Source: Candidatus Omnitrophota bacterium
Lineage (GTDB): Bacteria > Ratteibacteria > UBA8468 > B48-G9 > JAFGKM01
DNA length: 38,514 bases
Assembly: GCA_023818645.1 (NCBI GenBank)
Contig: JAMWCJ010000008.1
Coordinates: forward strand, 1-38,514
Reading direction: 5' to 3'
Both the position numbers and the translations under genes were made by a program. The number at the start of each line of letters is the position of its first letter. Positions within the stretch are counted from its first letter, which is position 1. Of this stretch, positions 1 through 16,097 are shown in pieces. The notes beneath the pieces were generated by a model. The model did no database searches and had not been told where the DNA came from. It saw nothing but the letters and a program-made list of their open reading frames with translations.

Positions 1-474
1 CCTGTTGTTGATAAAAATTATAAACAGATAGGAGCAAGTGCAATTGCATATAAACAAGTTGTTATTGCCTCAACTCCAATTGATATAAATCTTGCAAAAC
101 AATTAAATATTTTATTACTTGAACTTGGAGTACCTGAAAATAAAATTATTATGGACCCAACTGTTGGAGCACTTGGTTATGGAATTGAATATACTTATTC
201 TGTTATGGAAAGAGATAGGATTGCAGGTCTTCTTCAAGGAGATGATAAACTTGCATTTCCATTATATTGTTATTTATCAAAGGAGGTCTGGAAAATTAAA
301 GAAGTAAATATTCCTGAAAGTTCTGATTTTAAAATTGGAAAAGAGGCTGAAAGAGGAATAATGTTTGAGGCATTAACTGCAACTTTACTTTTACTTGCTG
401 GTGCAGATATTGTTGTTATAAGGCATCCAGAAACAATAAAATTAATAGATGAATTTATAGAAGAGATGAAATGA
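1..474 (+). CDS. acsD: Acetyl-CoA decarbonylase/synthase complex delta subunit, 3' part (partial at window edge)
   Basis: This is the last 157 residues of the small corrinoid iron-sulfur protein subunit, which with AcsC carries the methyl group to acetyl-CoA synthase in the Wood-Ljungdahl pathway. The frame is open from base 1 and no start codon is visible, so the gene begins upstream; the family is usually a little over 300 residues. The visible part matches the C-terminal half of the TIM-barrel fold, with the stretches IIMDPTVGALGYGIEY and MERDRIAGLLQGD that I recognise from AcsD/CdhD. Its stop overlaps the next start by four bases (ATGA at 471-474), so it heads the visible part of one operon with the CODH and ACS genes. 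The other half of the corrinoid protein, AcsC, is not in the window. Confidence 0.88.
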   Translation, partial: PVVDKNYKQIGASAIAYKQVVIASTPIDINLAKQLNILLLELGVPENKIIMDPTVGALGYGIEYTYSVMERDRIAGLLQGDDKLAFPLYCYLSKEVWKIKEVNIPESSDFKIGKEAERGIMFEALTATLLLLAGADIVVIRHPETIKLIDEFIEEMK

Positions 475-947
475 AAAAGGGGAAAATTTTAATTGATTTT
501 GAAAGATGTTTTGCCTGTAAAACATGCGAAATTGAATGTGCTTTTTCTCATAGTCAAGAAAAAGATTTCTTCCAATTTATTGAGAATCCTGATAGAATGC
601 CATCTGTAAGAATTAAAAAAATAGGCCAATACATTACTCCTTTAAGATGTTTGCATTGCGACTTCCCTTCATGTGTAGTTATATGTCCAACGAAAGCATT
701 AAAAAAAGATGAGAATAAAATTATAATTATAGAAAATGAAAAATGTGTTGGATGTGGTATGTGTGTGGTTGTCTGTCCTTATGGAGTACCTCATATAAAT
801 AGAGATAAAAAGATTTATACAAAATGTGATTTATGTATAGAAAGATTGAAAGATGGGCAATTACCTGCTTGTGTTTTAAGTTGTCCAAATAAAGCATTGA
901 AATTTTTTGAATTTGAAGAGAAAAATGAAAAAGTTAGAAGTAGATAA
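471..947 (+). CDS. Four-cluster ferredoxin (CooF/HycB-like electron-transfer protein)
   Basis: A 158-residue iron-sulfur protein of the CooF/HycB/DMSO-reductase beta type, expected to carry electrons between CO dehydrogenase and a partner in the cytoplasm. Four cysteine groups are visible in order: CFACKTCEIEC near residue 13, CLHCDFPSCVVICP near 63, CVGCGMCVVVCP near 93, and CDLCIE plus a later CVLSCP near the C-terminus. This is enough for four [4Fe-4S] clusters. It starts inside the acsD stop codon and its tail overlaps the next gene. In CO-oxidising bacteria a CooF-like ferredoxin is the usual electron acceptor of CooS. Here it precedes NADH-dehydrogenase-like subunits, so it may connect the CODH downstream to them. 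The family is clear; the exact partner is inferred. Confidence 0.88.
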   Translation: MKKGKILIDFERCFACKTCEIECAFSHSQEKDFFQFIENPDRMPSVRIKKIGQYITPLRCLHCDFPSCVVICPTKALKKDENKIIIIENEKCVGCGMCVVVCPYGVPHINRDKKIYTKCDLCIERLKDGQLPACVLSCPNKALKFFEFEEKNEKVRSR

Positions 948-1377
948 AATTTTAGAAAAAAATGGATGGAAGAAAAATAAGATAGTCGGAATTTTACAGG
1001 ATATTCAGGATGTTTATTATTATTTACCAGAAGATGTTCTTATCTATATTTCAGAAAAACTTAATATCCCTCTTTCACAAATTTATTCTATTTCTACATT
1101 TTACAAAGCATTTTCATTAAAACCAAAAGGGAAATATAGAATTAAAATTTGTCTTGGAACTGCTTGTCATGTGAGGGGCGGTTATATAATTTCTGAATTT
1201 CTAAAAAATAAACTTAAAATTTTGCCTGGAGAAACAACAAAAGATGAACTTTTTTCTTTTGAAACAGTCAATTGTCTTGGTGCATGTGCTATTGGTCCAA
1301 TTGTTGTTATAAATGAAAAATATTATGGTCAGATGGATGTTGAAAAGACCGAAAAATTGATTAATAAACTGAAATGA
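925..1377 (+). CDS. NuoE/HndA-like [2Fe-2S] subunit
   Basis: A 150-residue thioredoxin-like [2Fe-2S] protein of the NuoE/HndA/HydC family. Cluster ligands are visible as CLGTAC followed by CLGAC, giving the usual C-x4-C and C-x3-C pattern. The N-terminal helical part (LEKNGWKKNKIVGILQDIQ) is typical of the family. I chose ATG at 925; an in-frame TTG at 907 would add six residues but lies deeper in the upstream gene. The gene overlaps the ferredoxin upstream and shares ATGA (1374-1377) with the NuoF-like gene. In complex I, HndABCD and HydABC this subunit passes electrons to or from the NuoF-like flavoprotein. Confidence 0.9.
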   Translation: MKKLEVDKILEKNGWKKNKIVGILQDIQDVYYYLPEDVLIYISEKLNIPLSQIYSISTFYKAFSLKPKGKYRIKICLGTACHVRGGYIISEFLKNKLKILPGETTKDELFSFETVNCLGACAIGPIVVINEKYYGQMDVEKTEKLINKLK

Positions 1378-3224
1378 AAAAAATAAATGATATTGAAGAA
1401 TTAAAAAAATTGAGAGAAAAATTAATTAAGGGAAAAAATAAAGAAGGAATTGTAATAAGTGTTTGTATGGAGACAGGTTGTATTGCTTCAGGAAGTTATG
1501 AGATTTATAAAGAACTATTAAAAGAGGTTAAAAGATTAAAGGATAAAAAAGTAAAAGTTCTTAAAACTGGATGTCATGGATTTTCTGAAGTTGACCCTGC
1601 AATAGTTATCTATCCTGAAAAAATATTCTACATAAAAGTGAAAGTCGATGATATAGATGAAATAATTGAAAAAACAATTCAAAAAAGAGAAATTATTGAA
1701 AGGTTAACATATAAGGATGAAACAACAGGCGAAATTATACCTTATCTTGACCAAATCCCATTTTATAAAAAACAAAAGAAACTGGTCCTATCATTAAATG
1801 GCTTAATTGATCCTGAAGACATAAATGATTATATTCTCTATGGTGGCTATTCTGCATTATCAAAAGTTCTGTTTGAAATGGAGCCAGAAGAAATTATTGA
1901 GGAAATTAAAAAATCTGGTTTAAGGGGTAGAGGTGGAGGAGGTTTCCCAACAGGTAAAAAATGGGAATATTGTAGAAAAGCAGAAGGAGAACCAAAATAT
2001 GTTATATGTAATGCAGATGAAGGAGACCCTGGTGCTTTTATGGATAGAAGTGTTATTGAAGGGAATCCCCATTCTGTTATAGAAGGTATGATTATTGGTG
2101 CTTATGCTATAGGTGCCAATGATGGTTTTGTTTATATAAGACATGAATATCCTCTTGCTTTAAAAAGATTAAGTTTTGCAATTCAACAGGCAAGGGAATA
2201 TGGCTTTCTCGGAGAAGATATTCTTGGTTCAGGATTTTCTTTTGACATTGATATTGTTAGAGGGGGTGGTGCATTTGTCTGTGGAGAATCAACTGCTTTA
2301 ATGGCATCAATTGAAGGAAAAGTTGGTGAACCAAGAGCAAAATATATACATACAGTTGAAAAAGGCCTTTATGAAAAACCTACCTGTTTAAACAATGTAG
2401 AGACATGGGCAAATGTTCCTTTCATAATAAATAATGGATGGGAAAAATTTGCAGAAATTGGAACTGACACAAGTAAGGGAACAAAAATATTTTCTCTTGT
2501 TGGGAAGGTTAAAAATACAGGGCTTGTTGAAGTTCCAATGGGAATAACTTTAAAAGAGATAATTTTTGATATTGGTGGAGGGATAAAGGGGAATAAAAAG
2601 TTTAAAGGAGTTCAAACAGGTGGACCATCTGGAGGAGTTATACCTGAAAAATATCTTGATTTACCAGTTGATTTTGATAAGTTAAATGAAGTTGGTTCTA
2701 TGATGGGTTCAGGTGGAATGATAGTTATGGATGAAGATACATGTATGGTTGATGTTGCAAGGTATTTTTTGAATTTTTTAAAAGAAGAGTCATGTGGTAA
2801 ATGTGTTCCATGCAGAGAAGGAATAAACCAGATGCTTTCAATTTTAAATAGGATTACTGAAGGAAAAGGCAAAATTGAAGATATAGAAATTTTAAAAGAG
2901 ATTTCTGATTTTATGCAAAAGGCGTCTTTATGTGCTCTTGGGAAAACTGCTCCAAATCCTGTTTTAACAACTATTGAATACTTTTATGATGAATATGTTG
3001 CACATATTGAAAAGAAAAAATGTTATTCTGGTGTTTGTAAGGACTTGATAGAATATTTTATAGACCCTGAAAAATGCACAGGATGTCAGTTATGTGCAAA
3101 GAATTGTCCAGTAAGTGCTATAGAAGGTGAAAGAAAGAAAGTTCATAAGATTGATATAGAAAAATGTATAAAGTGTGGTATATGTTTTAATGTCTGTAAA
3201 TTTAATGCTGTTGAAAGGAAATAA
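1374..3224 (+). CDS. NuoF/HndC/HydB-like NAD(P)H-binding flavoprotein subunit
   Basis: A 616-residue flavoprotein that should bind NAD(P)H and FMN and exchange electrons with iron-sulfur partners. Domains in order: an N-terminal thioredoxin-like domain (residues 30-90), the FMN/NADH domain with GLRGRGGGGFPTGKKWE near 183-199, the NuoF [4Fe-4S] motif with C474, C477, C480 and C520, and a C-terminal two-cluster ferredoxin domain (CTGCQLCAKNCP at 568, then CIKCGICFNVCK). This is the layout of HndC/HydB of electron-bifurcating hydrogenases rather than the shorter NuoF of complex I. One oddity: the N-terminal domain has C31, C36 and C67, but the usual fourth ligand position (GCHGFC in relatives) reads GCHGFS, with Ser71. 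It overlaps nuoE-like by four bases and lies 2 bases before the next gene. Confidence 0.92.
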   Translation: MKKINDIEELKKLREKLIKGKNKEGIVISVCMETGCIASGSYEIYKELLKEVKRLKDKKVKVLKTGCHGFSEVDPAIVIYPEKIFYIKVKVDDIDEIIEKTIQKREIIERLTYKDETTGEIIPYLDQIPFYKKQKKLVLSLNGLIDPEDINDYILYGGYSALSKVLFEMEPEEIIEEIKKSGLRGRGGGGFPTGKKWEYCRKAEGEPKYVICNADEGDPGAFMDRSVIEGNPHSVIEGMIIGAYAIGANDGFVYIRHEYPLALKRLSFAIQQAREYGFLGEDILGSGFSFDIDIVRGGGAFVCGESTALMASIEGKVGEPRAKYIHTVEKGLYEKPTCLNNVETWANVPFIINNGWEKFAEIGTDTSKGTKIFSLVGKVKNTGLVEVPMGITLKEIIFDIGGGIKGNKKFKGVQTGGPSGGVIPEKYLDLPVDFDKLNEVGSMMGSGGMIVMDEDTCMVDVARYFLNFLKEESCGKCVPCREGINQMLSILNRITEGKGKIEDIEILKEISDFMQKASLCALGKTAPNPVLTTIEYFYDEYVAHIEKKKCYSGVCKDLIEYFIDPEKCTGCQLCAKNCPVSAIEGERKKVHKIDIEKCIKCGICFNVCKFNAVERK

Positions 3225-3226
3225 AT

Positions 3227-4000
3227 ATGGAAAATGTTGAAATTATAATTGATGGCGTAAGGAAAGTTGTCCCTAAAAGAATAACAATTCTTAAAGTTGC
3301 ACAAGAACTTAAAATTGAAATTCCTACTTTATGTTATCATCCTGCTATTGAACCATATGGTGCCTGTAGATTATGCACAGTAGAAATTGAAAAAAATAAT
3401 AGGAAAATGTTTGTAACTTCCTGTAATTATCCAATTGAAAATGAAATAAAGATAGAAACAAATAATGAAAATGTTATAAAGATAAGAAAGTTGATACTTG
3501 AATTATTGATTGCAAAAGTTGGATATAAGGGTAAAGTCAAAGAAATAGCAGAAAAATATAATGTAGAACCAAGATTTGGAGTTGGGGATGATGATTGTAT
3601 CTTATGTGGTTTATGTGTAAATGTTTGTAAAGAGATTATTGGAGTAAATGCAATAAGTTTTTCTTCAAGAGGTATAAATAGAGATGTTTCTCCACCTTTT
3701 GGGAAAGAAGCAGTTGATTGTATTGGTTGTGGTGCCTGTGCTTTTTTATGCCCTATTGGAACAATTAAAATTGAAGATTTAAATGAAAAAAGAATAATAA
3801 CAAAAATCAATGCAAATTTAGAACTTGAAAAATGTAAAATATGTGGGAAGTATTTTGTTCCTAAAAAATTTATTGAATATATAAAAAATAAAATTGGGAA
3901 TGTTGAACTTGATGTATTTTTAATCTGTGATGAATGTAAAGGGGAAAATTATATCAAAAGATTGGCATCTTTTTCTTTAACTGGAGGGAAAAATGAATAG
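3227..4000 (+). CDS. NuoG/HydA N-terminal-like iron-sulfur protein without hydrogenase domain
   Basis: A 257-residue iron-sulfur protein matching only the electron-relay part of NuoG, HydA or HoxU. Residues C36, C47, C50 and C66 form a plant-type [2Fe-2S] site. C124/127/130/134 and C165/168/171/175 form two [4Fe-4S] sites. The His-Cys3 cluster region usual between the first and second group is not visible, and the H-cluster domain of [FeFe]-hydrogenase is absent. Instead there is a short C-terminal domain with C203, C206, C234 and C237, which looks like a zinc ribbon or a further metal site. It follows the NuoF-like gene by 2 bases and overlaps cooS by 8 bases. The likely role is to relay electrons between the NAD(P)H-binding flavoprotein and CODH or its ferredoxin; this is inferred from position. 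Confidence 0.88.
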   Translation: MENVEIIIDGVRKVVPKRITILKVAQELKIEIPTLCYHPAIEPYGACRLCTVEIEKNNRKMFVTSCNYPIENEIKIETNNENVIKIRKLILELLIAKVGYKGKVKEIAEKYNVEPRFGVGDDDCILCGLCVNVCKEIIGVNAISFSSRGINRDVSPPFGKEAVDCIGCGACAFLCPIGTIKIEDLNEKRIITKINANLELEKCKICGKYFVPKKFIEYIKNKIGNVELDVFLICDECKGENYIKRLASFSLTGGKNE

Positions 4001-5882
4001 TGAAGAAAAACTGATTTTATTAGATGAAAGATTAAAATTACAACAACCTCAATGCGGTTTTGGAATTCTTGAGATATGTTGTAGAAATTGTGTAATGGGT
4101 CCATGTAGGATAAGTCCTTTTGATGGAGGTCCTAAACTGGGTGTCTGTGGTGCAAATGAGGATACAATTGTTGCAAGGAATTTATTAAGGAAAATTGCTG
4201 TTGGAACAAGTGCACATTCAGACCATGGAAGAGCAGTTGCAGAGGCATTGATTAAAGTTGCAAGAAAAGAGGCACCAGGATATGAAATTAAAGATGAATT
4301 TAAACTTATTAAACTTGCTCTTGAACTTGGAATAGATATAAAAGATAAAAAAACAGAAGAGATTGCTGAAAAAGTCGGTGAGGTATGTTTATCACAATTT
4401 GGAAATCAGGAAGGAGAGTTAATATTTACAAAAAGAGCACCTTTAAAGAGACAGAAAATCTGGAAAGAACTTGGAATAACACCAAGAGGAGTTGATAGAG
4501 AAGTTGTTGAGGCACTTCATAGAACTCATATGGGAACAGACCAAGATTATATAAATTTAATGAAACAGGCACAAAGATGCGCACTTTCAGATGGATGGGG
4601 TGGTTCAATGATAGCAACTGACTTAACAGATGTCTTATTTGGAACACCAGAACCAATTTTAGGACAAGTAAATTTCGGTGTTTTAAAAGAAGATTATGTA
4701 AATATAATTGTTCATGGTCATGAGCCACTTTTATCTGAAATGATTGTTATTGCATCAGAAGACCCAGAACTTATAAATCTTGCAAAAGAAAAAGGAGCAA
4801 AAGGAATAAATATAGGAGGAATATGCTGTACTGCAAATGAGGTTTTAATGAGGCATGGGATTTCAATTATAGGCAATTTTTTAAATCAAGAAATGGCAAT
4901 AACTACAGGAGCAGTTGAAGTTATGGTTGTTGATATTCAATGTATTATGGCATCCTTACCTGAAATTTCATCCTGTTTCCATACAAAAATTATAACAACT
5001 TCAGAAAAAGCAAAAATACCAGGAGCAATACATATACACTTTACAGAAGAAAATGCATTAGAAAAAGCAAAAGAGATAATAAAAATGGCAATTGAAAATT
5101 ACAAAAATAGAAAAAAAGAAAATGTTTTAATACCAGAAAATAAGATGGATTTAGTTGCTGGATTTTCTTATGAAAGTATATATTATATTCTCGGTGGTAG
5201 ATTTAGAGCAACATATAGACCCTTAAATGACAATATAATAAATGGGAAAATAAGAGGAATTGCAGGAGTTGTTGGTTGTAATAATCCAAAAGTAGTCCAT
5301 GACCAGATTCATATAAAACTTGTAAGTAAACTGATTGAAAATGATGTTTTAGTTTTACAAACAGGTTGTTCAGCAGTTGCCTGTGCAAAAGCAGGATTTA
5401 TGGATTCTGTAAAAGGATTAAATTATGCTGGGAAAGGATTAAGGGAAGTATGTGAAGCAGTTGGAATTCCACCTGTTATTCATATGGGTAGTTGTGTTGA
5501 CAATTCAAGAATTTTGTTGGCTGCGACATGTGTTGTTAAGGAAGGCGGGCTTGGAGATGATATATCTGAATTACCTGCTGCTGGAGCAGCACCTGAATGG
5601 ATGAGTGAAAAGGCATTAAGTATAGGTCAGTATTTTGTTTCTTCTGGTGTTTTTGTTGTATTTGGAATTACTTGGCCAACTTTTGGAAGTAAAAATTTAA
5701 CAAAATACTTATTTGAAGATATTGAAAAAGAAGTTGGTGGAAAATGGGCTTTTGAAAATGATCCTGATAAAATGGCTGATTTAATGCTTAAACATATTGA
5801 TGAAAAAAGAAAAAAACTTGGAATAGATAAAGCAAGAGAAAGAGTTCTTTATGATATGGCAATGAGGAGAGAACTTGAATGA
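3993..5882 (+). CDS. cooS: Nickel carbon monoxide dehydrogenase catalytic subunit
   Basis: A 629-residue Ni-CODH that interconverts CO and CO2; in acetogens (AcsA) it feeds CO to acetyl-CoA synthase. Cluster ligands match the family in spacing: C21 and C29 for the D-cluster, and C30, C33, C38 and C52 for the B-cluster. C-cluster motifs follow in order: a histidine in IIVHGHEP, then cysteines in GGICCTANE, VDIQCIM, GVVGCNNPK, LQTGCSAVACAK and HMGSCVDNSR. No key residue appears missing. The length is normal. It overlaps the iron-sulfur gene upstream and shares ATGA at 5879-5882 with the DUF5674 gene. With acsB downstream, AcsA-type function in CODH/ACS is the best reading, though a CooS role coupled to the NuoEF-like module is also possible. 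Confidence 0.97.
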   Translation: MNSEEKLILLDERLKLQQPQCGFGILEICCRNCVMGPCRISPFDGGPKLGVCGANEDTIVARNLLRKIAVGTSAHSDHGRAVAEALIKVARKEAPGYEIKDEFKLIKLALELGIDIKDKKTEEIAEKVGEVCLSQFGNQEGELIFTKRAPLKRQKIWKELGITPRGVDREVVEALHRTHMGTDQDYINLMKQAQRCALSDGWGGSMIATDLTDVLFGTPEPILGQVNFGVLKEDYVNIIVHGHEPLLSEMIVIASEDPELINLAKEKGAKGINIGGICCTANEVLMRHGISIIGNFLNQEMAITTGAVEVMVVDIQCIMASLPEISSCFHTKIITTSEKAKIPGAIHIHFTEENALEKAKEIIKMAIENYKNRKKENVLIPENKMDLVAGFSYESIYYILGGRFRATYRPLNDNIINGKIRGIAGVVGCNNPKVVHDQIHIKLVSKLIENDVLVLQTGCSAVACAKAGFMDSVKGLNYAGKGLREVCEAVGIPPVIHMGSCVDNSRILLAATCVVKEGGLGDDISELPAAGAAPEWMSEKALSIGQYFVSSGVFVVFGITWPTFGSKNLTKYLFEDIEKEVGGKWAFENDPDKMADLMLKHIDEKRKKLGIDKARERVLYDMAMRRELE

Positions 5883-6205
5883 TGAGAATAGTTGAAAAGA
5901 ATAAAAAAATAAAAATGTCGGAATTAAAAAAACTTGCAGAGGAAATGTTTGATATCCTTGTAAAAGCAGTGGTAGATATAGAAAAAGAGATTATGGTTGT
6001 TGGTGGTGAACTACATTCAGATGAAGAGGCATTATTGTTAAACTTAAATTCAAATCAAAAAAATTTGTGGGGTATCAATCTTTATCCTGGAGAAAAAGAA
6101 AAGTTTATTGAATTTGATTCTATAATTAATATAAAACCTTCTTTTGGTAACAAATCAAGAGATGTTGAAAATCTTGAAATAAAAAAAAAATTGAAAAGAT
6201 TGTGA
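5879..6205 (+). CDS. DUF5674 family protein
   Basis: A 108-residue protein that I recognise as DUF5674 from the run AVVDIEKEIMVVGGELHSDE followed by LWGINLYP and a conserved IEFDS...NIKPS segment. No enzymatic motif is apparent; it is acidic in the middle, with no cysteines and no membrane segment. It starts in the stop codon of cooS (ATG at 5879 or the immediately following ATG at 5882), so it is probably translationally coupled to CODH. The position between cooS and acsB is unusual and suggests a connection to CODH/ACS assembly or function, but DUF5674 proteins also occur outside such operons, so this is only inference. Confidence 0.75.
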   Translation: MMRIVEKNKKIKMSELKKLAEEMFDILVKAVVDIEKEIMVVGGELHSDEEALLLNLNSNQKNLWGINLYPGEKEKFIEFDSIINIKPSFGNKSRDVENLEIKKKLKRL

Positions 6206-6220
6206 AGAAACTGGTTATAA

Positions 6221-6562
6221 ATGACTTATTATAAATCATTAAAAGAAGGTAAGTGGTTTGAAATTGATTTTATTGAACAAATGGCAAATATTGGGATTGA
6301 AGTTTTAAGAGGGATGAGATGGAAAAATAAAAATGAAAAATATTTTAATGTTTCAATTGAAAAAGCAATTGAACTTATTGACTTAACAAAAATGGACCAA
6401 AAGAATAAAAAGAGATTGAAAGAAATTTGTAGATTAAAAGAAGTCCTTATTGATTACTTTTATGGTAATAATGAGTTTAAATCAAGCGATAAATTATGGG
6501 AAAATTACTTTAATCCATTTATTTACTATGCAGGTAAAATTAGAGAAAAAAGGAGGTTGTAA
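6221..6562 (+). CDS. Small helical protein of unknown function in CODH/ACS operon
   Basis: A 113-residue, probably all-helical soluble protein. Conspicuous segments are EIDFIEQMANIGIEVLRG near the N-terminus, a central region rich in Lys and Glu (IELIDLTKMDQKNKKRLKEI), and LKEVLIDYFYGNNEFKSSD with several aromatics. I see no cysteine pattern or signal peptide, and I do not assign a function. It follows DUF5674 after 15 bases and its stop overlaps the acsB start (TAATG at 6560-6564). The composition and the even spread of aromatics look like a genuine conserved protein rather than a chance ORF, and it sits in an otherwise gapless operon. Confidence 0.7.
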   Translation: MTYYKSLKEGKWFEIDFIEQMANIGIEVLRGMRWKNKNEKYFNVSIEKAIELIDLTKMDQKNKKRLKEICRLKEVLIDYFYGNNEFKSSDKLWENYFNPFIYYAGKIREKRRL

Positions 6563-8766
6563 TGTCAAAAATAATTGCTTCTGCTGCTATAAATGGAGCA
6601 AATAAAATAGTAAATATGGCAGAAAGAAAATGGAGAGAAGCAATTGATAAATATGGACCAAATCAAGATGTTGCCTTTCCAGATACTGCTTATTATTTAC
6701 CAATAATTTATGGAATACTTGGAATTCCCATATCAAAACTTTCCCATATGGAAAAAGTTTTTAAAATATGTAAAGATTTATTACCAGAACCTGTTCATAA
6801 AGATTGTCATTTACCTTATTTAGGACCTGTTTTAGATGCTGGAATGGCTACTTTATTTGCTGAAGAAATGATGGAAGCAATAAGATATATTGAAAACCCA
6901 GATTTTTATTTCCCGGAAGAAGAACCACCTGAAGAAAAATTATGGCTTGGAGCAGCAAATGATATAATTTTGAGGAAAAGAGGGATTGAATTTGTTGATG
7001 GAACTGCTCCTGGATTTGCTGCAGTTGTTGGTTCTGTACCTGATAACGAAACAGCAGTAAAAATAGCAACTGAATTAATAGAAAAGAACTTATATGTTTT
7101 TATGTGTGCTGAATATAATGGTAAAAGATTTGCAGAACAACTTAAAGATGCAGGTCTTCAACTTGGCTGGCCTGTCCGACTCGTTCCTTTTGGTCCTGAA
7201 ATTTATCAAGCGGTATTTGCACTTGGTTTTGCAGTAAGGGCTGCTATGAGTTTTGGAGGAATTGAACCAGGAGATTATAGAAGGATTTTGATTTATAATA
7301 AGGATAGAATTTTTGCCTTTGTTCTTGCTTTTGGATATGTGAATGAAGAATGGTATGCAAATGCAGCAGGAGCAATAAATTTTGGTTTTCCAACAATTGC
7401 AGACACTCCTATTCCTCAAATTTTACCAACTGGTATATGTACTTATGAGCATGTTGTTTCAAATATTCCACATTCTGAAATTGTCTCAAAAGCAGTTGAA
7501 GTAAGAGGATTAAAGGTTACTGTTTCAAAAGTTAACATTCCTGTTCCTTATGGTCCTGCATTTGAAGGAGAAAGGGTAAGAAAAGAGGATTTATATGTTG
7601 AGAGTGGAGGAGGAAAAAGTTTATCCTGTGAATGGACAACAAGTTTACCTTTAGAAGAAGTTGAGGATGGAAAAATAGAAGTTATAGGACCGGAAATTGA
7701 TGATATCCCTGAGGGAAGTGCAATACCAATGGCAACTCTTGTTGAAGTTGCAGGTAGAGAAATGCAGGAAGATTTTGAACCAATACTTGAAAGACAAATT
7801 CATGATTATATTAACTATATAAATGGAGTTATGCATATAGGGCAGAGAGATATTGTTTGGATAAGGATAAGTAAAAAAGCAAAAGAGAAAGGACTAAAAT
7901 TCAAACATCTTGGAGTGGCAATTCATGCAAAATACCATGAGGTATTTTCAAATATCCTTGATAAAGTTCAGGTTAAAATTTATACTGATGAAGAAAAAGT
8001 TAAAGAAATTCTTGAAAAAGCAAGGAAGGTATGGAAACAAAGAGATGAACGACTTGCAGGAATTACTGATGAAGAAGTTGATACATTTTATTCCTGCACA
8101 CTTTGCCAGTCGTTTGCTCCGAATCATGTATGTATAGTAACTCCTGAAAGGACAGGTCTTTGTGGTGCATTTTCTTATCTTGATTGTCGCGCTTCAAACA
8201 GGATAAATCCAACAGGCCCAAATCAGCCAGTAAAAAAAGGAAAGATTCTTGATGAAAAGTATGGCCAATGGGAAGGAATAAATGAATTTGTAAAAAAAGC
8301 AAGTAGAGGAGCAATTGAAAAAGTAAGTGTTTATAGTTTAATGCTGGACCCTATGACAACTTGTGGATGCTGTGAATGTATTGCAGTAGTTCTTCCTTTA
8401 TGTAATGGGATAATGACAGTAAATAGGGAATATAAAGGAGAAACTCCCTGTGGAATGAAATTTACAACTCTTGCTGGTAATGTTGGTGGGGGAAGACAAA
8501 TCCCAGGATTTCTTGGACATTCAAAATTTAATATAACTCAGAAGAAATTTCTTCAAGCAGAAGGTGGAATATTGCGTCTTGTATGGATGCCTAAAATGTT
8601 AAAGGAAGAAATAAAAGAAAGATTTATAAAAAGAGCAGAAGAAGTTGGAATACCTGATTTGCTTGATAGAATTGCAGATGAAACAATAGGTATAACAGAA
8701 GAAGAAATTTTACCATTTTTACAGGAAAAAAAGCATCCAGCGCTTGAACTACCCCCAATTATGTAA
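6562..8766 (+). CDS. acsB: Acetyl-CoA synthase (CO-methylating) beta subunit
   Basis: A 734-residue bacterial acetyl-CoA synthase that joins CO, a methyl group from the corrinoid protein, and CoA. The A-cluster is visible: a [4Fe-4S] set in CTLCQSFAPNHVC followed by GLCGAF, and the nickel-binding C-G-C in TTCGCCECI. The full N-terminal domain is present (TAYYLPIIYGILG and later the Rossmann-like region), as in Moorella-type AcsB and unlike the shorter archaeal CdhC. It is preceded by a good ribosome site (AGGAGG near 6550) and overlaps the upstream stop. It is the last gene of the operon; the next gene is convergent. Confidence 0.97.
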   Translation: MSKIIASAAINGANKIVNMAERKWREAIDKYGPNQDVAFPDTAYYLPIIYGILGIPISKLSHMEKVFKICKDLLPEPVHKDCHLPYLGPVLDAGMATLFAEEMMEAIRYIENPDFYFPEEEPPEEKLWLGAANDIILRKRGIEFVDGTAPGFAAVVGSVPDNETAVKIATELIEKNLYVFMCAEYNGKRFAEQLKDAGLQLGWPVRLVPFGPEIYQAVFALGFAVRAAMSFGGIEPGDYRRILIYNKDRIFAFVLAFGYVNEEWYANAAGAINFGFPTIADTPIPQILPTGICTYEHVVSNIPHSEIVSKAVEVRGLKVTVSKVNIPVPYGPAFEGERVRKEDLYVESGGGKSLSCEWTTSLPLEEVEDGKIEVIGPEIDDIPEGSAIPMATLVEVAGREMQEDFEPILERQIHDYINYINGVMHIGQRDIVWIRISKKAKEKGLKFKHLGVAIHAKYHEVFSNILDKVQVKIYTDEEKVKEILEKARKVWKQRDERLAGITDEEVDTFYSCTLCQSFAPNHVCIVTPERTGLCGAFSYLDCRASNRINPTGPNQPVKKGKILDEKYGQWEGINEFVKKASRGAIEKVSVYSLMLDPMTTCGCCECIAVVLPLCNGIMTVNREYKGETPCGMKFTTLAGNVGGGRQIPGFLGHSKFNITQKKFLQAEGGILRLVWMPKMLKEEIKERFIKRAEEVGIPDLLDRIADETIGITEEEILPFLQEKKHPALELPPIM

Positions 8767-8829: not shown

Positions 8830-10641
8830 TTAAATTATCAAAGGGTTAAATTCAATTTTGAAATCGATTTTTTCTTTTAGTGCCATTATTTCATCATAAG
8901 GTAGTTTTTCATCCTTTTTTAATTTAAAAATTATTTTGAAAAATTTTTTATTTTTTCTCCCATTTGTAATATCAGAAAAAAGAATCTCAAATTTATTTCG
9001 TTCAATTATATCTCTTAAAAGATTAACTCTATTTTCAAATGTCGGACTTCTCTTAACAGGTATCTCAATAGCAATTATATCTGAGAATGGTGGATAACCT
9101 AAAATTTCTCTCGTTTTGAGTTCCTTTTCATAAAAAATCTCATATTTCTTTGTTTTAAAAAAAGTAAATATTTCAAAATTTGGATTTTTTGTTTGAATTA
9201 TTATCTTTGCATTTTTGTTTTTCAACCTACATATAAACTCATTGACAATAAAAAAGAAAATCTCTTCTGAATTATATTCAGGGATATTAAAAAATGACTC
9301 TGCATGTGGGAAAATAATCAATCCAAAATCAAATATATCAAGAATATTTTTTAAAACAGAAGAACCTACAATGATATCACTTTCTTTTTCAATATTTTTT
9401 TCTTCTGCTGTGAATTTTTGTATCTTAAAATCAGGATAAACATCCTTCAATTTTCTATACATTTTTTCAATACCAATTATCCTTTCAATTATATTTTTAC
9501 TTCTACAATTAGGACATTTCTTTACAAAATTTTCTGAAGTTCTGCAATATTTACAGTATAATTTATTTTCTTCATTTAGTATAAGAATAGAAGAACATTC
9601 TTTACATCTTAATACATGGTCGCAATTATCGCATTTAAATGTTTTCCAATTCCCTTTTCTATTATGAATAATCCCAACTTTTTTCCCTTTCAAAATAGTT
9701 TCTTCAAGCATAGAGACAGAAAATTTAGTAAGAAAATCTAAATTTTTATCAATCTGTTCCCATTTTTTATCTAAAATAAAAATCTCAGGAGTTCCTTCAA
9801 ATGACCTTTTATCAAATAAAGTAATTTTTTTATTTTTAACTTCAAAATAATCATTTATAGAAAGAGTATGAGAAGTCAAAATTAGTGGTATATTTAAAAA
9901 TTTGCATCTTTCTTCTGCAACATCAACAGCATTATATTTAGGATGTTTTTTTTCTCTGTAGGAACTATCAATGTAGGAATCAACAATTATTGCGCTAAGA
10001 TCTAAAAAGGGTAAAAAAACAGAAATTCTTGAGCCAATAACTATTAAATTTTTATTATTTAAAATTTCAAGATATCTTTCCATCCTTTCTTTTTTTTTCA
10101 TCTCACCATAATATTTCAAAACCTTTTTTTCTACTTTTCCTTCAATCATTTGATAATAATCCTCTATTATTGAAATTTCAGGAAACAAAAAAAGTAAAGA
10201 ACCATTTGTTTGTTTTATTAAATCAATGTAAAACTCTAACTTTTCTTCTTTACTTTGATAAAGATAAATCTTTTTTTCAAATTTTTGAAATAATTGGGTA
10301 GATAAAGTTTTTTCAATCTCTAATTTTTTTTTACAGTGTTTTAAAGGTAGATTCCCAATTATTGAGAAAATAACTTGACCAAGAGAAATACAATATCTTC
10401 TTGCAATAATTTTAAAAAATTCAAAATCTTCATTGTTTATCAAAGGACTTTCATCATAGACTTTTTTTATAAATTTAAAATCATTTTCTTTCTCTGTATC
10501 TTTAACATTTATCGCAAAACCTTTTCTATTTTTTTTCCCAAGAGGAGTCAAAACACGTACAAAATTATTTATTTCCTTTTCATAAAGGTAAAAAAAACTT
10601 CTTTCTAAAGGTATATCAAAAACAATTTCAACAAGTTTCAT
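8830..10641 (-). CDS. PriA-like primosomal protein N' with degenerate helicase motifs
   Basis: A 603-residue homologue of PriA, which normally reloads the replisome at stalled forks using a DEAH-type helicase and a zinc domain. The zinc domain is intact, with four CxxC pairs at C337/340, 346/349, 363/366 and 376/379. Collinear PriA segments are clear, such as FLFPEIS at 152, GSRISVFLPF at 203 and LGYPPFSD near the end. The helicase core is not intact. The Walker A position near 125-138 reads YLYQSKEEKLEF with no GxGKT. The Walker B DEEHD position reads DSYID at 221-225. The late GRAGR motif reads FICRLKN near 469. The protein is over 100 residues shorter than typical PriA. It follows the methyltransferase by 8 bases in the same operon. 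Actinobacterial PriA also lacks helicase motifs, so a structural loading role is plausible. Confidence 0.82.
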   Translation of the reverse strand: MKLVEIVFDIPLERSFFYLYEKEINNFVRVLTPLGKKNRKGFAINVKDTEKENDFKFIKKVYDESPLINNEDFEFFKIIARRYCISLGQVIFSIIGNLPLKHCKKKLEIEKTLSTQLFQKFEKKIYLYQSKEEKLEFYIDLIKQTNGSLLFLFPEISIIEDYYQMIEGKVEKKVLKYYGEMKKKERMERYLEILNNKNLIVIGSRISVFLPFLDLSAIIVDSYIDSSYREKKHPKYNAVDVAEERCKFLNIPLILTSHTLSINDYFEVKNKKITLFDKRSFEGTPEIFILDKKWEQIDKNLDFLTKFSVSMLEETILKGKKVGIIHNRKGNWKTFKCDNCDHVLRCKECSSILILNEENKLYCKYCRTSENFVKKCPNCRSKNIIERIIGIEKMYRKLKDVYPDFKIQKFTAEEKNIEKESDIIVGSSVLKNILDIFDFGLIIFPHAESFFNIPEYNSEEIFFFIVNEFICRLKNKNAKIIIQTKNPNFEIFTFFKTKKYEIFYEKELKTREILGYPPFSDIIAIEIPVKRSPTFENRVNLLRDIIERNKFEILFSDITNGRKNKKFFKIIFKLKKDEKLPYDEIMALKEKIDFKIEFNPLII

Positions 10642-10649
10642 AATTTTAT

Positions 10650-11534
10650 TTAGAAAAATTTAATTAAAACATCTTTAAGATTTTTTATATAAGAAGGTGT
10701 AGTCCCACAGCACCCACCAATAAATTTTACTCCCTTTTCAACAATTTTTAAACAATTTTCAGTAAATTCATCTATATTTTCCTGATATTCAATTTTGCCA
10801 TTCACAATCCTTGGTTTTCCTGCATTTGGTTTTATCCATAATGTTAAATCTGTTAAATCCTTCATTATTTCCACCAAACCCAACATTTCTTTTGAATTTA
10901 AACCGCAGTTTGACCCGACAATTGAAATCTTGTTATTTTCTGCCCATTTTATATACTCCTCTACTTTCTGACCCATTAAAGTTCTGTATTCCTTACCCAA
11001 ATTAAAAGTCAAACAAGGAATAATTAAAAAAGATGTGCTTTCCTTCAATGTTTCATAGGCAATCTTTAGTTCTTCAATATCCTGAAATGTTTCAAGAACT
11101 AAAAAATCAACTTTTGTTTTTCCAAAAACTTTACCAACTTCATAAAAAATTTCTTTTGCTTCTTTTATTCCGACATCACCATATGGCTGAAGAAATTCAC
11201 CTAAAGGACCTATATCACCTCCAATAAATATATCTTTAAATTTATCCTTCACTTTCAGAATTATATCAACTCCTTTATAAATTATATTGTAAAATTTGTC
11301 TTCAATTTTCTTTTTATTTAAAATTTTTCTATTTGCTCCAAATGTATTTGTTAAAATTATTTCTGAACCACTTTCACAATACTCTAAATGAATTTTTTCA
11401 ACAATCTCTGGTCTCTCAATATTAGCAATTTCAGGAGTAATACCTTTAAATCCTTTCTTTTCTATATATGTTCCAAAGGCACCATCTAAAATTACAAAAT
11501 TTTTATTTCTAAATTTTTCAAATATTTTTTCCAT
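10650..11534 (-). CDS. Homocysteine S-methyltransferase family protein
   Basis: About 294 residues of the zinc-dependent homocysteine/betaine methyltransferase barrel, which moves a methyl group to homocysteine or a related thiol. Visible motifs are LDGAFGTYIEKKG at the start, TNTFGANR, the first zinc cysteine in GSNCGLN, and the paired zinc cysteines in GGCCGTTP near the C-terminus, so all three zinc ligands are present. I chose the ATG at 11534; the frame stays open to 11567, but those extra residues lie inside the upstream gene. It is a stand-alone barrel without the cobalamin domains of MetH. The methyl donor (methionine-type, betaine or methylfolate) cannot be told from the sequence. Confidence 0.88.
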   Translation of the reverse strand: MEKIFEKFRNKNFVILDGAFGTYIEKKGFKGITPEIANIERPEIVEKIHLEYCESGSEIILTNTFGANRKILNKKKIEDKFYNIIYKGVDIILKVKDKFKDIFIGGDIGPLGEFLQPYGDVGIKEAKEIFYEVGKVFGKTKVDFLVLETFQDIEELKIAYETLKESTSFLIIPCLTFNLGKEYRTLMGQKVEEYIKWAENNKISIVGSNCGLNSKEMLGLVEIMKDLTDLTLWIKPNAGKPRIVNGKIEYQENIDEFTENCLKIVEKGVKFIGGCCGTTPSYIKNLKDVLIKFF

Positions 11535-14445
11535 ATTTTTGTATAATTGAAATTCTACCAAGTCCAAAAGGTACAGTTGAATAATCTAAAGTTCGTTCTT
11601 TACTTCTAAACCATTTTTTACCATAATCAATAAATGAAAATGGACCTACAAATTTAGGATTATGTTCTTTGGTATGATGTGGACCTAATAAATTTCTTAA
11701 ACTTGAAAAAAGTTCAATCTCAATTGTATTTCTATCTTCTTTTATATATTCAGTTATTTCTATTTCATAAGGAGGCAAATAAATAAGACCAACTTCATAT
11801 CCATTTATTTTAACTTTTGCCACTATACATTTAAATTCTTCAAATTTTAAAAATTTTTTCCCTCCTCCTTTAATTTCAATATCACAAACTGCCTTTAAAC
11901 TCCCAGAGTAAAAAGGGTATCCTTGTAAATTTAGGTCTTCTTCACTTATTTCTTTATCTTTTTCTGCAATAACAAAATTATTTAGATAATAACCACCATT
12001 TTTATATTCAACCTTTCTTGCCTTTACAACAAAATTACCAAGCAAATATATATTTTCAATCTCAGTACCATCTTTTCTAAAAATTAAGGTATTTTTAAAT
12101 TTAGGTGGAATAAAAGTAATTTCCATCTCAATTTTGTTTTTCCCTCTTTTAATATAATCTTTTGAAATTTTAACTTTTTTAAAACAAGGGTCTATCCACT
12201 GTTCCATATTTTTTTCTTTTATACTTTTATTATTTATCCTTACTCTATATTTTTCTAACATTTCTGCAACTAAATATAAATCATTATTAAAATTTTCATT
12301 CTCAAATTCAAAAAGTAAAGTTACTTTCTGTCTTTTATTTTCTTTTTCCAGAATCTCCTGAACTTGTAAAACAGGTATTTTCCCTGACAATCTTTTATCT
12401 TTTTTTCTTTTAAACTTACAAAAATCAATTACAAGAATATTTTCAGAAGTTAATTCAATTTTCCAATTTCCTATATCAAATTTCAAAACTTCTTCTTCCT
12501 TTTTATTACCTCTCAAAATTGAAGGTTTTTCACTTTTATCAATCAAAAAAAGAGAAGAACCAATAGGTGGAAAAAAATCTTCAATTAGAATTCCATTATT
12601 TTGTTTTTTTACATCTATTACACTTATCTCTCCTTTAAATGGATCGAGTTTATAAACCTTACCTTCATATTTCAGAGTTATAAAAGTTTTATATGATTTT
12701 TCAAGTGAAATATTATTCAGAAAAATCAATTCAATATCTCCATCAATTTTTCTTCTATGAACGAAAATATTGGAAATCTCTTGGTTGTTTTCTTCATAAA
12801 TCTCAATATCTCTTTTTACATACTTATTTAATTTTTCAATTAAGTACTGAATAGAAGAATATAAAATGCATTCATTTTTAATATCAATATTTTTTCTCTC
12901 CCCTTCTATTAAATATGGGAAAAATACTTCTGAAGCAAAAACTTTACCACCCTCATCTATAAATTTTTTTATCAATTCAATTGTTTTCTCCCTTAGAGTT
13001 GCCATTGGAGGTAAAATTAAATATTCATATTCACACCTTCCTATTTTAAACTTCCCATCTTTCACTTCTCCATATTTTTTAATTAAATTTTCATTTCCAA
13101 ATTCGTATTCAAATTTATTTTCAAGAAGTTTTTGTGTTAATTGAAGTAATAATTCATCATAATCTTTAAGTTTTTTAGACCCTTTTAAAACCCATGCAGT
13201 TTCAATAGGATGAATAACAAGAATATTTGCTATAAATTTTCCATTACTCATAATAAAATTTATTCTTGCAAAATAATCTTCAAGTTCTTTTTGATACTTC
13301 CAGTATGGTTGATGATGAGAAATTGTTGGAGGAAAATCTCTTTTCCTGCATCCTTTTAATGAATATAAATATAAATGTGGACAGAAAAAATTTACTCCAA
13401 GAGAAATATGCCAATCCCCAATCCATTTTCTTTCTGCAAGTGTAAAATTCTGACCTGAACAACCATATAATTCACTTAATACTCTTTCTTTCCCAAGTTG
13501 ATTTGCTACAGAACTACATTGTTTTAAAGTTAATGGATTGTTTAAATCTCTTCCAAGATGATCAACTCCAGGCCATTGCATAAATTCGTACAAACTCATA
13601 GCATCTCCGATAGAATCTACTTGACTTGTTAAATTATCTTCTTTTAAATAATGTCCTGTTAGAAAAATTTTGTTTTTTTCACAGAAATTGTATATGTTTT
13701 CACCAAAATTTTTAATAAAAAGTTCTACTATTAATTTTGAATATTGATATCTTAATAATTCAAATCCATCTTTTTCTTCAATAAGTAAATTTATTTTTTG
13801 ATAGATATCATAACCATACTTTTGTTTGAATATATTCCTGAAATTTTTTGACCATGGGAAATAATAAGAATTTTGCGATTTTTTTACTGTTCTATGATGA
13901 AAATAATTGGGTTCATCTGTAAAAATTGCAGGTACTGTATCAGGAATATAATTTTTTAAAAATTTTATATATCTTTCATATGTTGACTTTATAAAATCAT
14001 TAATTGTTTTTTCATTCATTGTATCGACATAAGTCAAACCATTGTACCACTCAGATTTTTCCCCTTCAATAACTTTTTTCTTCCATTTTTTGCCTTTTTT
14101 CCAGATTTTTAGAATTTTAATTCTATTTTCTTTTTTCTTTGATACAATCCCTCCAGCAAAACCACTTGGCCATCTATCTTCATCATATAAATACATTTTC
14201 ATTCCCTTTTGATTTGCATATTTAACAATTTCTTTTATACATTCCATCCAACCTTCTGATAAGTAAGGTGTAATAAGACCAATTCTTGAATGCATAAAAC
14301 CCCCTCCAAATCCACCTTCTTCCATCTTGTCTATTTGAAACTTTAATTGTTCAATTTTTAACTCATCATTCCAAGACCAAAAAGGAGCCGCTCTATAAAT
14401 AAAATCAGGATTTTCAAATCCATCAATCAATCTTTTCTCTATCAT
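11518..14445 (-). CDS. GH106-like glycoside hydrolase family protein
   Basis: A 975-residue protein of the large family annotated as glycosyl hydrolase or alpha-L-rhamnosidase-like (GH106-related). The N-terminal barrel begins with FIYRAAPFWSWND, GGFGGGFMHSRIG and MYLYDEDRWPSGFAGG, which are hallmarks of that family; TDEPNYF near residue 190 and GQNFTLAERKWIGDWH further on are probable active-site regions. C-terminal parts look like beta-sandwich domains (for example IEIELFSSLRNLLGPHH). No signal peptide or membrane segment is visible, so it is predicted to be intracellular. I chose ATG at 14445 because AAGGGAAGG lies just upstream; ATG at 14469 is an alternative. It overlaps the HDAC-like gene by 23 bases and the methyltransferase by 17. 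The substrate is unknown. Confidence 0.8.
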   Translation of the reverse strand: MIEKRLIDGFENPDFIYRAAPFWSWNDELKIEQLKFQIDKMEEGGFGGGFMHSRIGLITPYLSEGWMECIKEIVKYANQKGMKMYLYDEDRWPSGFAGGIVSKKKENRIKILKIWKKGKKWKKKVIEGEKSEWYNGLTYVDTMNEKTINDFIKSTYERYIKFLKNYIPDTVPAIFTDEPNYFHHRTVKKSQNSYYFPWSKNFRNIFKQKYGYDIYQKINLLIEEKDGFELLRYQYSKLIVELFIKNFGENIYNFCEKNKIFLTGHYLKEDNLTSQVDSIGDAMSLYEFMQWPGVDHLGRDLNNPLTLKQCSSVANQLGKERVLSELYGCSGQNFTLAERKWIGDWHISLGVNFFCPHLYLYSLKGCRKRDFPPTISHHQPYWKYQKELEDYFARINFIMSNGKFIANILVIHPIETAWVLKGSKKLKDYDELLLQLTQKLLENKFEYEFGNENLIKKYGEVKDGKFKIGRCEYEYLILPPMATLREKTIELIKKFIDEGGKVFASEVFFPYLIEGERKNIDIKNECILYSSIQYLIEKLNKYVKRDIEIYEENNQEISNIFVHRRKIDGDIELIFLNNISLEKSYKTFITLKYEGKVYKLDPFKGEISVIDVKKQNNGILIEDFFPPIGSSLFLIDKSEKPSILRGNKKEEEVLKFDIGNWKIELTSENILVIDFCKFKRKKDKRLSGKIPVLQVQEILEKENKRQKVTLLFEFENENFNNDLYLVAEMLEKYRVRINNKSIKEKNMEQWIDPCFKKVKISKDYIKRGKNKIEMEITFIPPKFKNTLIFRKDGTEIENIYLLGNFVVKARKVEYKNGGYYLNNFVIAEKDKEISEEDLNLQGYPFYSGSLKAVCDIEIKGGGKKFLKFEEFKCIVAKVKINGYEVGLIYLPPYEIEITEYIKEDRNTIEIELFSSLRNLLGPHHTKEHNPKFVGPFSFIDYGKKWFRSKERTLDYSTVPFGLGRISIIQKYGKNI

Positions 14446-15319
14446 TGCCTTCCCTTTTTTTAATAACACTATTAAAACCAGAAATAAAGCAATAGATAAG
14501 ATTTCCTATTTTAAATATATTGTATCCACCTTCTAAAATCAAAAATATTTTTTTGCCAAGATTATTTATCTTTTTACCTATTATATAATAATCAGTTTCA
14601 GTTAGAGAAAGTTGTAATAATGGATCTTCTCTAAAAGTATCAAAACCACAAGAAACGGCAATAATATCTGGTGAGAAGTTTTTTATTATCTCAAGTGCAA
14701 TATCAAGTTTTTCAATGTATTTTTTTGAACTTGAAAAAGGCGGAACAGGGAAATTATAACAGTTTTCAAAAGAATATTTACCTGTTCCTGGATAAGCAGG
14801 AAATTGATGAATTGAAACATATATTACATTTTCTTCATCTTTTAAAATCTCTTCGGTTCCATTACCATGGTGTCCATCTATATCAAGAACTGCTACTTTA
14901 TAATTTTTTAATAAAAGTTTTTTTACAGCAATTGCTATATTATTAAAATAACAAAAGCCACCAAGATTATTTTTACCTGCATGATGTCCTGGAGGTCTAC
15001 CAAGAGAAAAACCAATTTTTCCTTCAAGAGAAATCTCGCTTGCTTTTATAGAAGCACCAACAGATAAACAAGCATAGTAGAATATATCTTTTATATTTGG
15101 ACAATCAGGATCAAAAAAATTATTTTCTTTCACTTTTTTAACCAGTTCATAACTGTGAACAAGGTATAAATCTTCTTCTTTACATGGTTCTGGTTTGACA
15201 AATTTAAAATTACCTTTTCTACAAAGATAATTAACTATTCTCTCTATCCTTTCAGGTGATTCTGGATGTGACTCTTCTTTGTATTTTAGAAATTCTTCAG
15301 AGTAAACAAACTCAATCAT
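14423..15319 (-). CDS. Histone deacetylase family (AcuC/HDAH-like) amidohydrolase
   Basis: A 298-residue zinc deacetylase of the arginase/HDAC fold. Features in order: HPESPERIERI at 18-28, GRPPGHHAG with the catalytic His pair at 112-113, GGFCYFNN, LDIDGHHGNG with zinc ligands D148 and H150, CGFDTFREDP supplying the third Asp, and LEGGYN with the active-site Tyr. All catalytic residues appear present. Bacterial members act on acetylated polyamines, acetoin metabolism targets or acetyl-lysine; none can be chosen here. Its ATG overlaps the kinase stop by four bases, so the two are probably co-translated. It also overlaps the GH106-like gene downstream. Confidence 0.92.
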   Translation of the reverse strand: MIEFVYSEEFLKYKEESHPESPERIERIVNYLCRKGNFKFVKPEPCKEEDLYLVHSYELVKKVKENNFFDPDCPNIKDIFYYACLSVGASIKASEISLEGKIGFSLGRPPGHHAGKNNLGGFCYFNNIAIAVKKLLLKNYKVAVLDIDGHHGNGTEEILKDEENVIYVSIHQFPAYPGTGKYSFENCYNFPVPPFSSSKKYIEKLDIALEIIKNFSPDIIAVSCGFDTFREDPLLQLSLTETDYYIIGKKINNLGKKIFLILEGGYNIFKIGNLIYCFISGFNSVIKKREGNDREKID

Positions 15320-16074
15320 TCAATTTTCCTGGTTTCAAGGATATAAACTATTCCTTCCATACTTTCAAATCTATTTTCAGGTTTAGGGTCTGTTGCTATT
15401 CTAATTATATTTTTTATTTTATCATTTAAAGGGAAATTCAATTCTTTATAAATTTTTTCAATTGTCTTTCCAAATGAATATATATCACTCTTTTCATCAC
15501 CAGGTCTACCTTCGTAAATCTCTGGTGCTATATATCCCTCAGTACCTCCTTTAAACTTACCCCTGTTAAAAATCCATCTCCCTATCTGAGAAAGACCAAA
15601 ATCAGTAATTTTAATCTTTTCGAGAGAATAAGTTATCAAAATATTTGAAGGATTGATATCTTTATGAACTATACCATTTTTGTGAATATATGAAATACCC
15701 TTTGCTGCTTTAACAATTATATCAATTATATTTTTTTCATTAAAAATGTTTTTTTTAGCTCTTATCGCTTTCATTAAATCGGTATCAAGGTATTCCATTA
15801 AAATGAAAAAATTTCCGTCCTCCTGAATTACATCAAAAACTTTAACTATATTTGGGTGTTCAAGTGACTTTGCAATTTTACCTTCTTTAACAAACTGTCT
15901 AATTTGATTTCTTTCAAGTCGTCTTGGATGTAAAACCTTAACAGCAATAATTGAATTATATAAAGGAAATGGCTCTATTGACTCTGCTCTATAAACAGTT
16001 GAAAATCCACCAGAACCAACCATTTCTTTCAAAATGTAATTTTTTACTATATAACCTGTCCTTATTTTCTCCAA
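15316..16074 (-). CDS. Ser/Thr protein kinase (single soluble kinase domain)
   Basis: About 252 residues comprising just a Hanks-type kinase domain. Visible motifs are the glycine loop GSGGFSTVY, the ATP-binding Lys in IAVKVL, the catalytic loop VHKDINPSN (Lys in place of the usual Arg of HRD), DFGLS, and APE preceded by a GGTEGY activation segment. There is no transmembrane segment, PASTA or other sensor domain, so it is cytoplasmic. The start is TTG at 16074, because GAGGAG sits 6 bases upstream; another TTG at 16092 would make that ribosome site part of the gene. It leads a five-gene overlapping run, so it may act on one of the products downstream, but no target is indicated. Confidence 0.88.
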   Translation of the reverse strand: MEKIRTGYIVKNYILKEMVGSGGFSTVYRAESIEPFPLYNSIIAVKVLHPRRLERNQIRQFVKEGKIAKSLEHPNIVKVFDVIQEDGNFFILMEYLDTDLMKAIRAKKNIFNEKNIIDIIVKAAKGISYIHKNGIVHKDINPSNILITYSLEKIKITDFGLSQIGRWIFNRGKFKGGTEGYIAPEIYEGRPGDEKSDIYSFGKTIEKIYKELNFPLNDKIKNIIRIATDPKPENRFESMEGIVYILETRKIE

Positions 16075-16097
16075 TTTTTTCTCCTCAAACAATTTTA

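Follow-up and report, generated by a model that had tools for sequence, protein, structure and literature searches.

A motor-dead PriA, probably a fork-binding clamp, is kept across an order of uncultivated bacteria

Here we describe a PriA with a dead helicase motor, encoded in the 1.97-Mb MAG (93% complete) of an uncultivated hot-spring bacterium; the whole stretch of DNA that we analysed, 38,514 nucleotides in length, is referred to as the window. We consider it likely (a probability of about three in four) that the gene encodes the only PriA of the organism, and that this pseudohelicase is a fork-binding clamp that helps to reload DnaB without unwinding DNA. The motor-dead PriA is not a one-off: it is common to the whole order (28 genomes in families f1–f3, Ratteibacteria/‘Omnitrophota’ MAGs), and PriAs like it are found in two further phyla. 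PriA is regarded as a near-universal helicase, with one experimentally shown exception in the literature that we searched. The protein reported here is most likely a variant of that already known kind, the PriA pseudohelicase, for which Deinococcus radiodurans is the precedent.

The window gene descends from PriA (Table 1). Its open reading frame, strand, length and coordinates were found to be right, and with 241 bits the protein exceeds the cut-off of 230 for TIGR00595, the curated PriA model, which places it in the PriA family. PF17764, the model of the 3′ DNA-binding domain (3′BD), also matches, and only PriA chains are found among the closest sequence relatives in the PDB (E about 1e-36). 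An AlphaFold2 model built on the window protein together with ten relatives (mean pLDDT 81, pTM 0.77) is predicted to have the full PriA fold. A comparison of the predicted structure with known PriAs had been proposed in a preliminary description of this DNA; in Foldseek, the top nine PDB matches of the model are all PriA (6dcr, E 5.7e-38), with a TMq of 0.76 for the fork-bound form (8fak) versus 0.60–0.70 for other PriA entries; over the structural alignment, identity to canonical PriA is about 20%. The profile score, the 3′BD and the fold bear out the earlier identification of a PriA homologue with an intact frame of 603 codons. A viral origin was considered and rejected: two patterns searched in viral contigs gave no relatives.

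Apart from the winged helix, the whole PriA architecture is kept: the 3′BD, two RecA-like lobes, the zinc region and the C-terminal domain. All eight zinc cysteines (C337, C340, C346, C349, C363, C366, C376 and C379) align with those of canonical PriA, as first reported. PF17764 identifies the 3′BD in all 19 order members that were scanned; PF18074, which represents the C-terminal domain, is not called in the window protein and matches in 4 of the 19. The winged-helix domain is absent in the alignment. Because it is also reduced or mostly missing in the motor-intact PriAs of the sister families f4 and f5, its loss is not diagnostic and is older than, or separate from, the loss of the motor, of which we rejected it as a part.

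Table 1 Features of the priA-derived gene and its product in the window
Feature	Residues	Window coordinates	Strand	Basis
priA-derived pseudohelicase gene, 603 codons plus stop		8830..10641	(-)	ORF; TIGR00595; Foldseek against PriA
3′ DNA-binding domain (3′BD)	1-95	10357..10641	(-)	PF17764, E 1.1e-15
Linker replacing winged-helix domain, mostly disordered in model	96-121	10279..10356	(-)	Alignment; pLDDT < 50 at residues 101-117
First RecA-like lobe, motifs I-III lost	122-277	9811..10278	(-)	Alignment, AF2 model, Foldseek
Walker A (motif I), destroyed, YQSKEEKLEFY	128-138	10228..10260	(-)	Alignment, pattern search
Motif Ia, kept, FLFPEIS	151-157	10171..10191	(-)	Alignment, pattern search
Motif Ib, kept, IVIGSRISVFLP	200-211	10009..10044	(-)	Alignment, pattern search
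Motif II, destroyed, IIVDSYIDSS	218-227	9961..9990	(-)	Alignment, pattern search
Conserved segment after motif II, kept, YREKKHPKYNAVDVAEER	228-245	9907..9960	(-)	Alignment
Motif III, destroyed, LTSHTLSIN	255-263	9853..9879	(-)	Alignment, pattern search
Second RecA-like lobe, first part	278-334	9640..9810	(-)	Alignment, AF2 model
Motif IV, kept, IIHNRKG		9652..9672	(-)	Alignment, pattern search
Cysteine-rich (zinc) region, 8 Cys	335-386	9484..9639	(-)	Cys aligned with canonical PriA
Second RecA-like lobe, second part, motifs V and VI destroyed	387-494	9160..9483	(-)	Alignment, pattern search
Motif V, destroyed		9331..9375	(-)	Alignment, pattern search
Motif VI, destroyed		9217..9243	(-)	Alignment, pattern search
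C-terminal domain, FYEKEL..R..GYPPF..., near-terminal NP	495-603	8833..9159	(-)	Alignment, AF2 model

Where the sister families have GVTASGKTEVY in motif I, DEEF or DEEH in motif II, GTATPSLES in motif III, GTQLLAKGHHFP in motif V and QVAGRAGR in motif VI, the window PriA has YQSKEEKLEFY, DSYI, TSHTLSIND, GSSVLKNILDIF and EFICRL with a two-residue gap, respectively. It carries none of the hallmarks of an active SF2 motor (Walker A, DEEH, GSATP, motif V and QxxGRxGR). The preliminary description had raised the possibility that the motifs are displaced but intact; Walker A, DExH and GRxGR patterns were absent from the entire protein in a pattern search, so the motifs are not displaced. The same description held every helicase motif to be degenerate, which is correct for motifs I, II, III, V and VI but too strong as a general statement because Ia, Ib and IV are kept, as is the segment that follows motif II. 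This segment (SYREKKHPKYNAVDVAEER), which we take to be a candidate aromatic-rich loop, remains recognisable, and its P234 and Y236 are invariant in 19 order members. Over the 126 columns that are conserved in 44 motor-intact PriAs, family f1 retains 87% of consensus residues in the 3′BD, 70% in the zinc region, 67% in the C-terminal domain and 67–76% in motifs Ia, Ib and IV and in the segment that follows motif II; retention in the motor motifs is 26% (I), 31% (II), 30% (III), 36% (V) and 8% (VI). Outside the kept motifs, the residues of the lobes have drifted, so that contacts with DNA may have been lost there as well. Chance is excluded as the source of the motif losses because they are common to 22 aligned proteins of the order.

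Canonical PriA (Escherichia coli and K. pneumoniae; 8fak, 6dgd and 4nl4; TIGR00595 and PRK05580) has in common with the window PriA the 3′BD, the RecA-like lobes, the eight-cysteine zinc region, the C-terminal domain, motifs Ia, Ib and IV and the segment after motif II; in contrast to it, the window PriA lacks motifs I, II, III, V and VI and the winged helix. The actinobacterial type of PriA (PRK14873) is described as having no usable helicase motifs and a retained zinc region. Among NCBIfam models, the best PRK14873 model gives 84 bits and the PRK05580 model (PRK05580.1-3) 261 bits, so the window PriA does not belong to the actinobacterial subfamily. The actinobacterial precedent invoked earlier has to be replaced: no actinobacterial paper was found in the literature searched, and the documented case is D. 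radiodurans (PMC4504706). The window PriA resembles the Deinococcus–Thermus pseudohelicase (PMC4504706) in its PriA ancestry, in motifs I and II that are unfit for ATP hydrolysis, in the DNA-binding parts that are kept, in a basic residue (Arg in Deinococcus–Thermus) at the place of the Walker lysine and in its DciA-type genome (Thermus and Deinobacterium controls match DciA). Three features of a D. radiodurans-type pseudohelicase are found here: no canonical copy beside it, unfit motor motifs and maintenance by selection. In the D. radiodurans protein, motifs I and II match poorly and a Lys is replaced by Arg (PMC4504706), whereas the window PriA has also lost the P-loop and motifs III, V and VI. 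The window PriA also differs in coming from another phylum and in having no winged helix.

A second, complete priA, for which a search had been suggested in the preliminary description, was not found by profile search in the same genome, where the other TIGR00595 matches that we checked as candidates are Mfd, RecG and UvrB, and the 28 genomes of the order yielded no canonical PriA. Degraded PriA is present in 23 of these genomes (22 full-length aligned proteins and that of G027, which is interrupted at the zinc region by a gap); one has an N-terminal fragment alone (G013, 104 amino acids), and the four genomes that have no PriA match are 54–86% complete. The phylum is represented by seven other genomes, in families f4 and f5, and six of them encode canonical PriA (528–624 bits). 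TIGR00595 scores in the order are mostly 166–261 bits, with about half of the members below the cut-off, and fall to 90–92 bits (best piece) in genus g9. In this genus, the zinc region is deleted from the dead PriA (G020, C23 9672-11264, L035; G027, C7 10-1338), and the frame is intact in G020. Two species (G018 and G023) have each lost one zinc cysteine; the remaining 19 of the 22 aligned members keep all eight. Docking at the zinc region can therefore not be essential across the order. Those loci that lie in named records mostly carry the label Candidatus Omnitrophota, and one that of Candidatus Ratteibacteria. As a separate observation, one MAG (G033) that already has a PriA carries a second canonical-looking one (contig C61 33-1580, L083; 862-amino-acid frame), either a contaminant or a paralogue.

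Across this order, in which canonical PriA was not found, the gene is maintained by purifying selection. Compared with the nearest relative (G003), dN/dS is 0.18 at a dS of 0.36, with 0.07–0.20 for neighbouring genes. Whole-gene values in the other measurable pairs across the order are 0.12–0.29; most domains are constrained in most pairs, and the linker is the least constrained part.

The loss of the PriA motor recurs more widely than is apparent from the literature that we searched. A scan with the window PriA family also gave Rokuibacteriota PriA with dead motifs; the homologue scan of genome contigs used a closer alignment (A2), so its breadth was limited. In the Rokubacteria phylum, 46 of 67 PriA-bearing genomes score low (126–286 bits) and 21 are canonical (366–634 bits), and among 80 genomes sampled from the Elusimicrobium phylum 41 score 477–647 bits and 37 score 124–405 bits (37 of the 78 with a match are thus low), a low score serving only as a proxy beyond the 9 Rokubacteria and 21 Elusimicrobiota proteins whose motifs were inspected. 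Those nine Rokubacteria PriAs have lost motifs I, V and VI and keep Ib, most of Ia and the eight cysteines; the dead forms mostly have a three-residue gap in the P-loop (clade loci L074:944-2806, L091 and L119–L126). Motif VI is lost and the eight cysteines are present in all 21 inspected Elusimicrobiota proteins, five of which have GKT in motif I (loci L077:7570-9540 and L157–L176). In this phylum the motor is in graded decay, as some forms have GKT without motifs V and VI and others are fully dead. The degraded PriAs of both phyla resemble the window PriA in the motifs that are lost or eroding and in the elements that are kept; unlike it, the Rokubacteria clade has better-kept motif III and part of motif II, and some Elusimicrobiota forms still have the GKT that is absent from all Ratteibacteria forms. 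Together, the order and the two phyla offer natural experiments on the role of PriA that separate fork recognition and DnaB loading from unwinding, and the graded decay in Elusimicrobiota may reveal the sequence in which motor motifs are lost. The annotation ‘replication restart helicase PriA’ is misleading for such proteins, which are most unlikely to be helicases.

Work on other PriAs indicates how a protein of this kind could function. E. coli PriA binds forks through several domains, with the zinc region, HD2 and the C-terminal domain closing into a pore around lagging-strand single-stranded DNA (ssDNA), and its restart partner PriB docks on the zinc region; in vivo, PriA–PriB restart in E. 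coli does not depend on ATP hydrolysis or unwinding by PriA, and K230A variants were used for DnaB loading in vitro (PMC10175261). The D. radiodurans PriA neither hydrolyses ATP nor unwinds DNA, yet binds ssDNA, forks and DnaB (PMC4504706). The genome studied here encodes DnaB (562 bits) and a short DciA, as well as DnaA, RecG, Mfd, UvrB and a PcrA/UvrD-type helicase. Candidates for a DnaC/DnaI loader were rejected, as the PF01695 matches in the genome are PhoH and DnaA, and the Bacillus-type primosome protein PF07261 has no match there. Because DnaB and DciA are present and neither a DnaC/DnaI loader nor a PF07261 protein was detected, DciA is likely to be the loading partner of this PriA. 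We propose that the 3′BD would recognise abandoned forks through the 3′ end of the nascent leading strand, and that the lagging-strand ssDNA would be held by the dead RecA lobes, the zinc region and the C-terminal domain as a static clamp or pore. The clamped PriA would then mark the site at which DnaB is reloaded, probably with DciA, and duplex lagging arms would require another helicase. The kept 3′BD, motifs Ia and Ib, zinc region and C-terminal domain are compatible with such a clamp. The preliminary suggestion of a helicase-dead restart loader is right in that an intact, motor-dead PriA is kept; fork binding and the recruitment of DnaB and DciA are putative functions.

An alternative that we regard as distinctly unlikely is that the protein has been repurposed to bind forks or ssDNA, protecting or regulating forks or D-loops without loading DnaB, and that restart proceeds through DciA and DnaA or by another route. 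The genome encodes DciA and DnaB, which could manage reloading by themselves, and the zinc region, which in E. coli docks PriB (PMC10175261), is deleted in g9 and eroding in G018 and G023; however, the eight zinc cysteines persist in the other 19 of 22 order members and in each of the 30 dead PriAs inspected in the two other phyla, and the D. radiodurans pseudo-PriA still binds DnaB (PMC4504706). We think it very improbable that a residual, atypical ATP-binding switch operates through a basic residue in the Walker-lysine column and the aspartate of motif II. The P-loop glycines and threonine are gone, the Rokubacteria loop is mostly gapped, motif VI is deleted, and an arginine at this position abolishes the activity of the E. 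coli protein (K230R, PMC4504706). The column nevertheless remains basic in the window PriA and holds K or R in 22 of 22 order members, in 9 of 9 Rokubacteria forms and in 16 of 21 forms from Elusimicrobiota, and Arg in Deinococcus–Thermus PriAs (PMC4504706); the window PriA and 20 of 22 order members also retain the first Asp of DEEH. The retained K or R is suggestive only, because the segment is rich in basic residues, so that one at this place is not improbable, and because the rows are related. Least credible of all is that the gene is a pseudogene decaying slowly under relaxed selection: it has a low GC content (23.5%, against 29.1% in the window) and evolves faster than most of its neighbours, but the frame is open in all 22 aligned order members, cysteines and C-terminal residues are invariant, no other PriA was found that would relax selection, and dN/dS is low. 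The gene is not a decaying pseudogene, and the earlier statement that it is not simply one agrees with this selection and with its presence across the order.

A further alternative concerns origin rather than function: the PriA of the order may already have been dead when it was acquired from an Elusimicrobiota-like donor, which we consider rather unlikely. In a PriA tree calculated under a site-heterogeneous model with motif columns removed and with Actinobacteria and Deinococcus PriAs left out, the dead PriAs of the order form one clade (100/100) that adjoins the dead Elusimicrobiota forms (86/97) and not the motor-intact f4 and f5 of its own class. A constraint that unites it with f4 and f5 costs 25 log units (p-AU 0.056), so vertical descent is not rejected at 0.05; moreover, long, fast branches attract each other, and several dead Elusimicrobiota forms have the GKT that all Ratteibacteria forms lack. 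The Rokubacteria dead clade is placed beside live PriAs of its own phylum (66/77), far from the Ratteibacteria clade, and a constraint that joins all dead PriAs as one clade gives a p-AU of 0.059. At least two changes to a dead PriA would be needed on the best tree. Motor loss in Ratteibacteria may have been independent, or an event or transfer shared with Elusimicrobiota. The proposal that the dead state was reached independently therefore agrees with the tree as regards the Rokubacteria clade and, as regards the actinobacterial type, with model scores only, and is qualified by the adjoining Elusimicrobiota clade. Tentatively, and at somewhat less than even odds, we suggest that losing the PriA motor is a recurrent route in bacteria that use DciA and not DnaC. 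On this view, one set of ATPase elements decays in separate lineages and the parts for fork binding and zinc persist. The conserved task of PriA would then be structural, a fork clamp for DnaB loading, with unwinding as an optional add-on, and g9 would have gone one step further by dropping the zinc region.

Eight bases upstream of priA lies a homocysteine S-methyltransferase-like gene (10653-11567(-)), and this adjacency occurs in all nine family-f1 relatives tested. Genes for alpha-L-rhamnosidase-like, histone-deacetylase-fold and PknB-like kinase proteins follow in a row upstream of the pair (window 11521-16092(-)). Elsewhere in the window (151-8766(+)), a CODH/acetyl-CoA synthase cluster with NuoE/NuoF-like and hydrogenase-type Fe–S subunits points to Wood–Ljungdahl chemistry.
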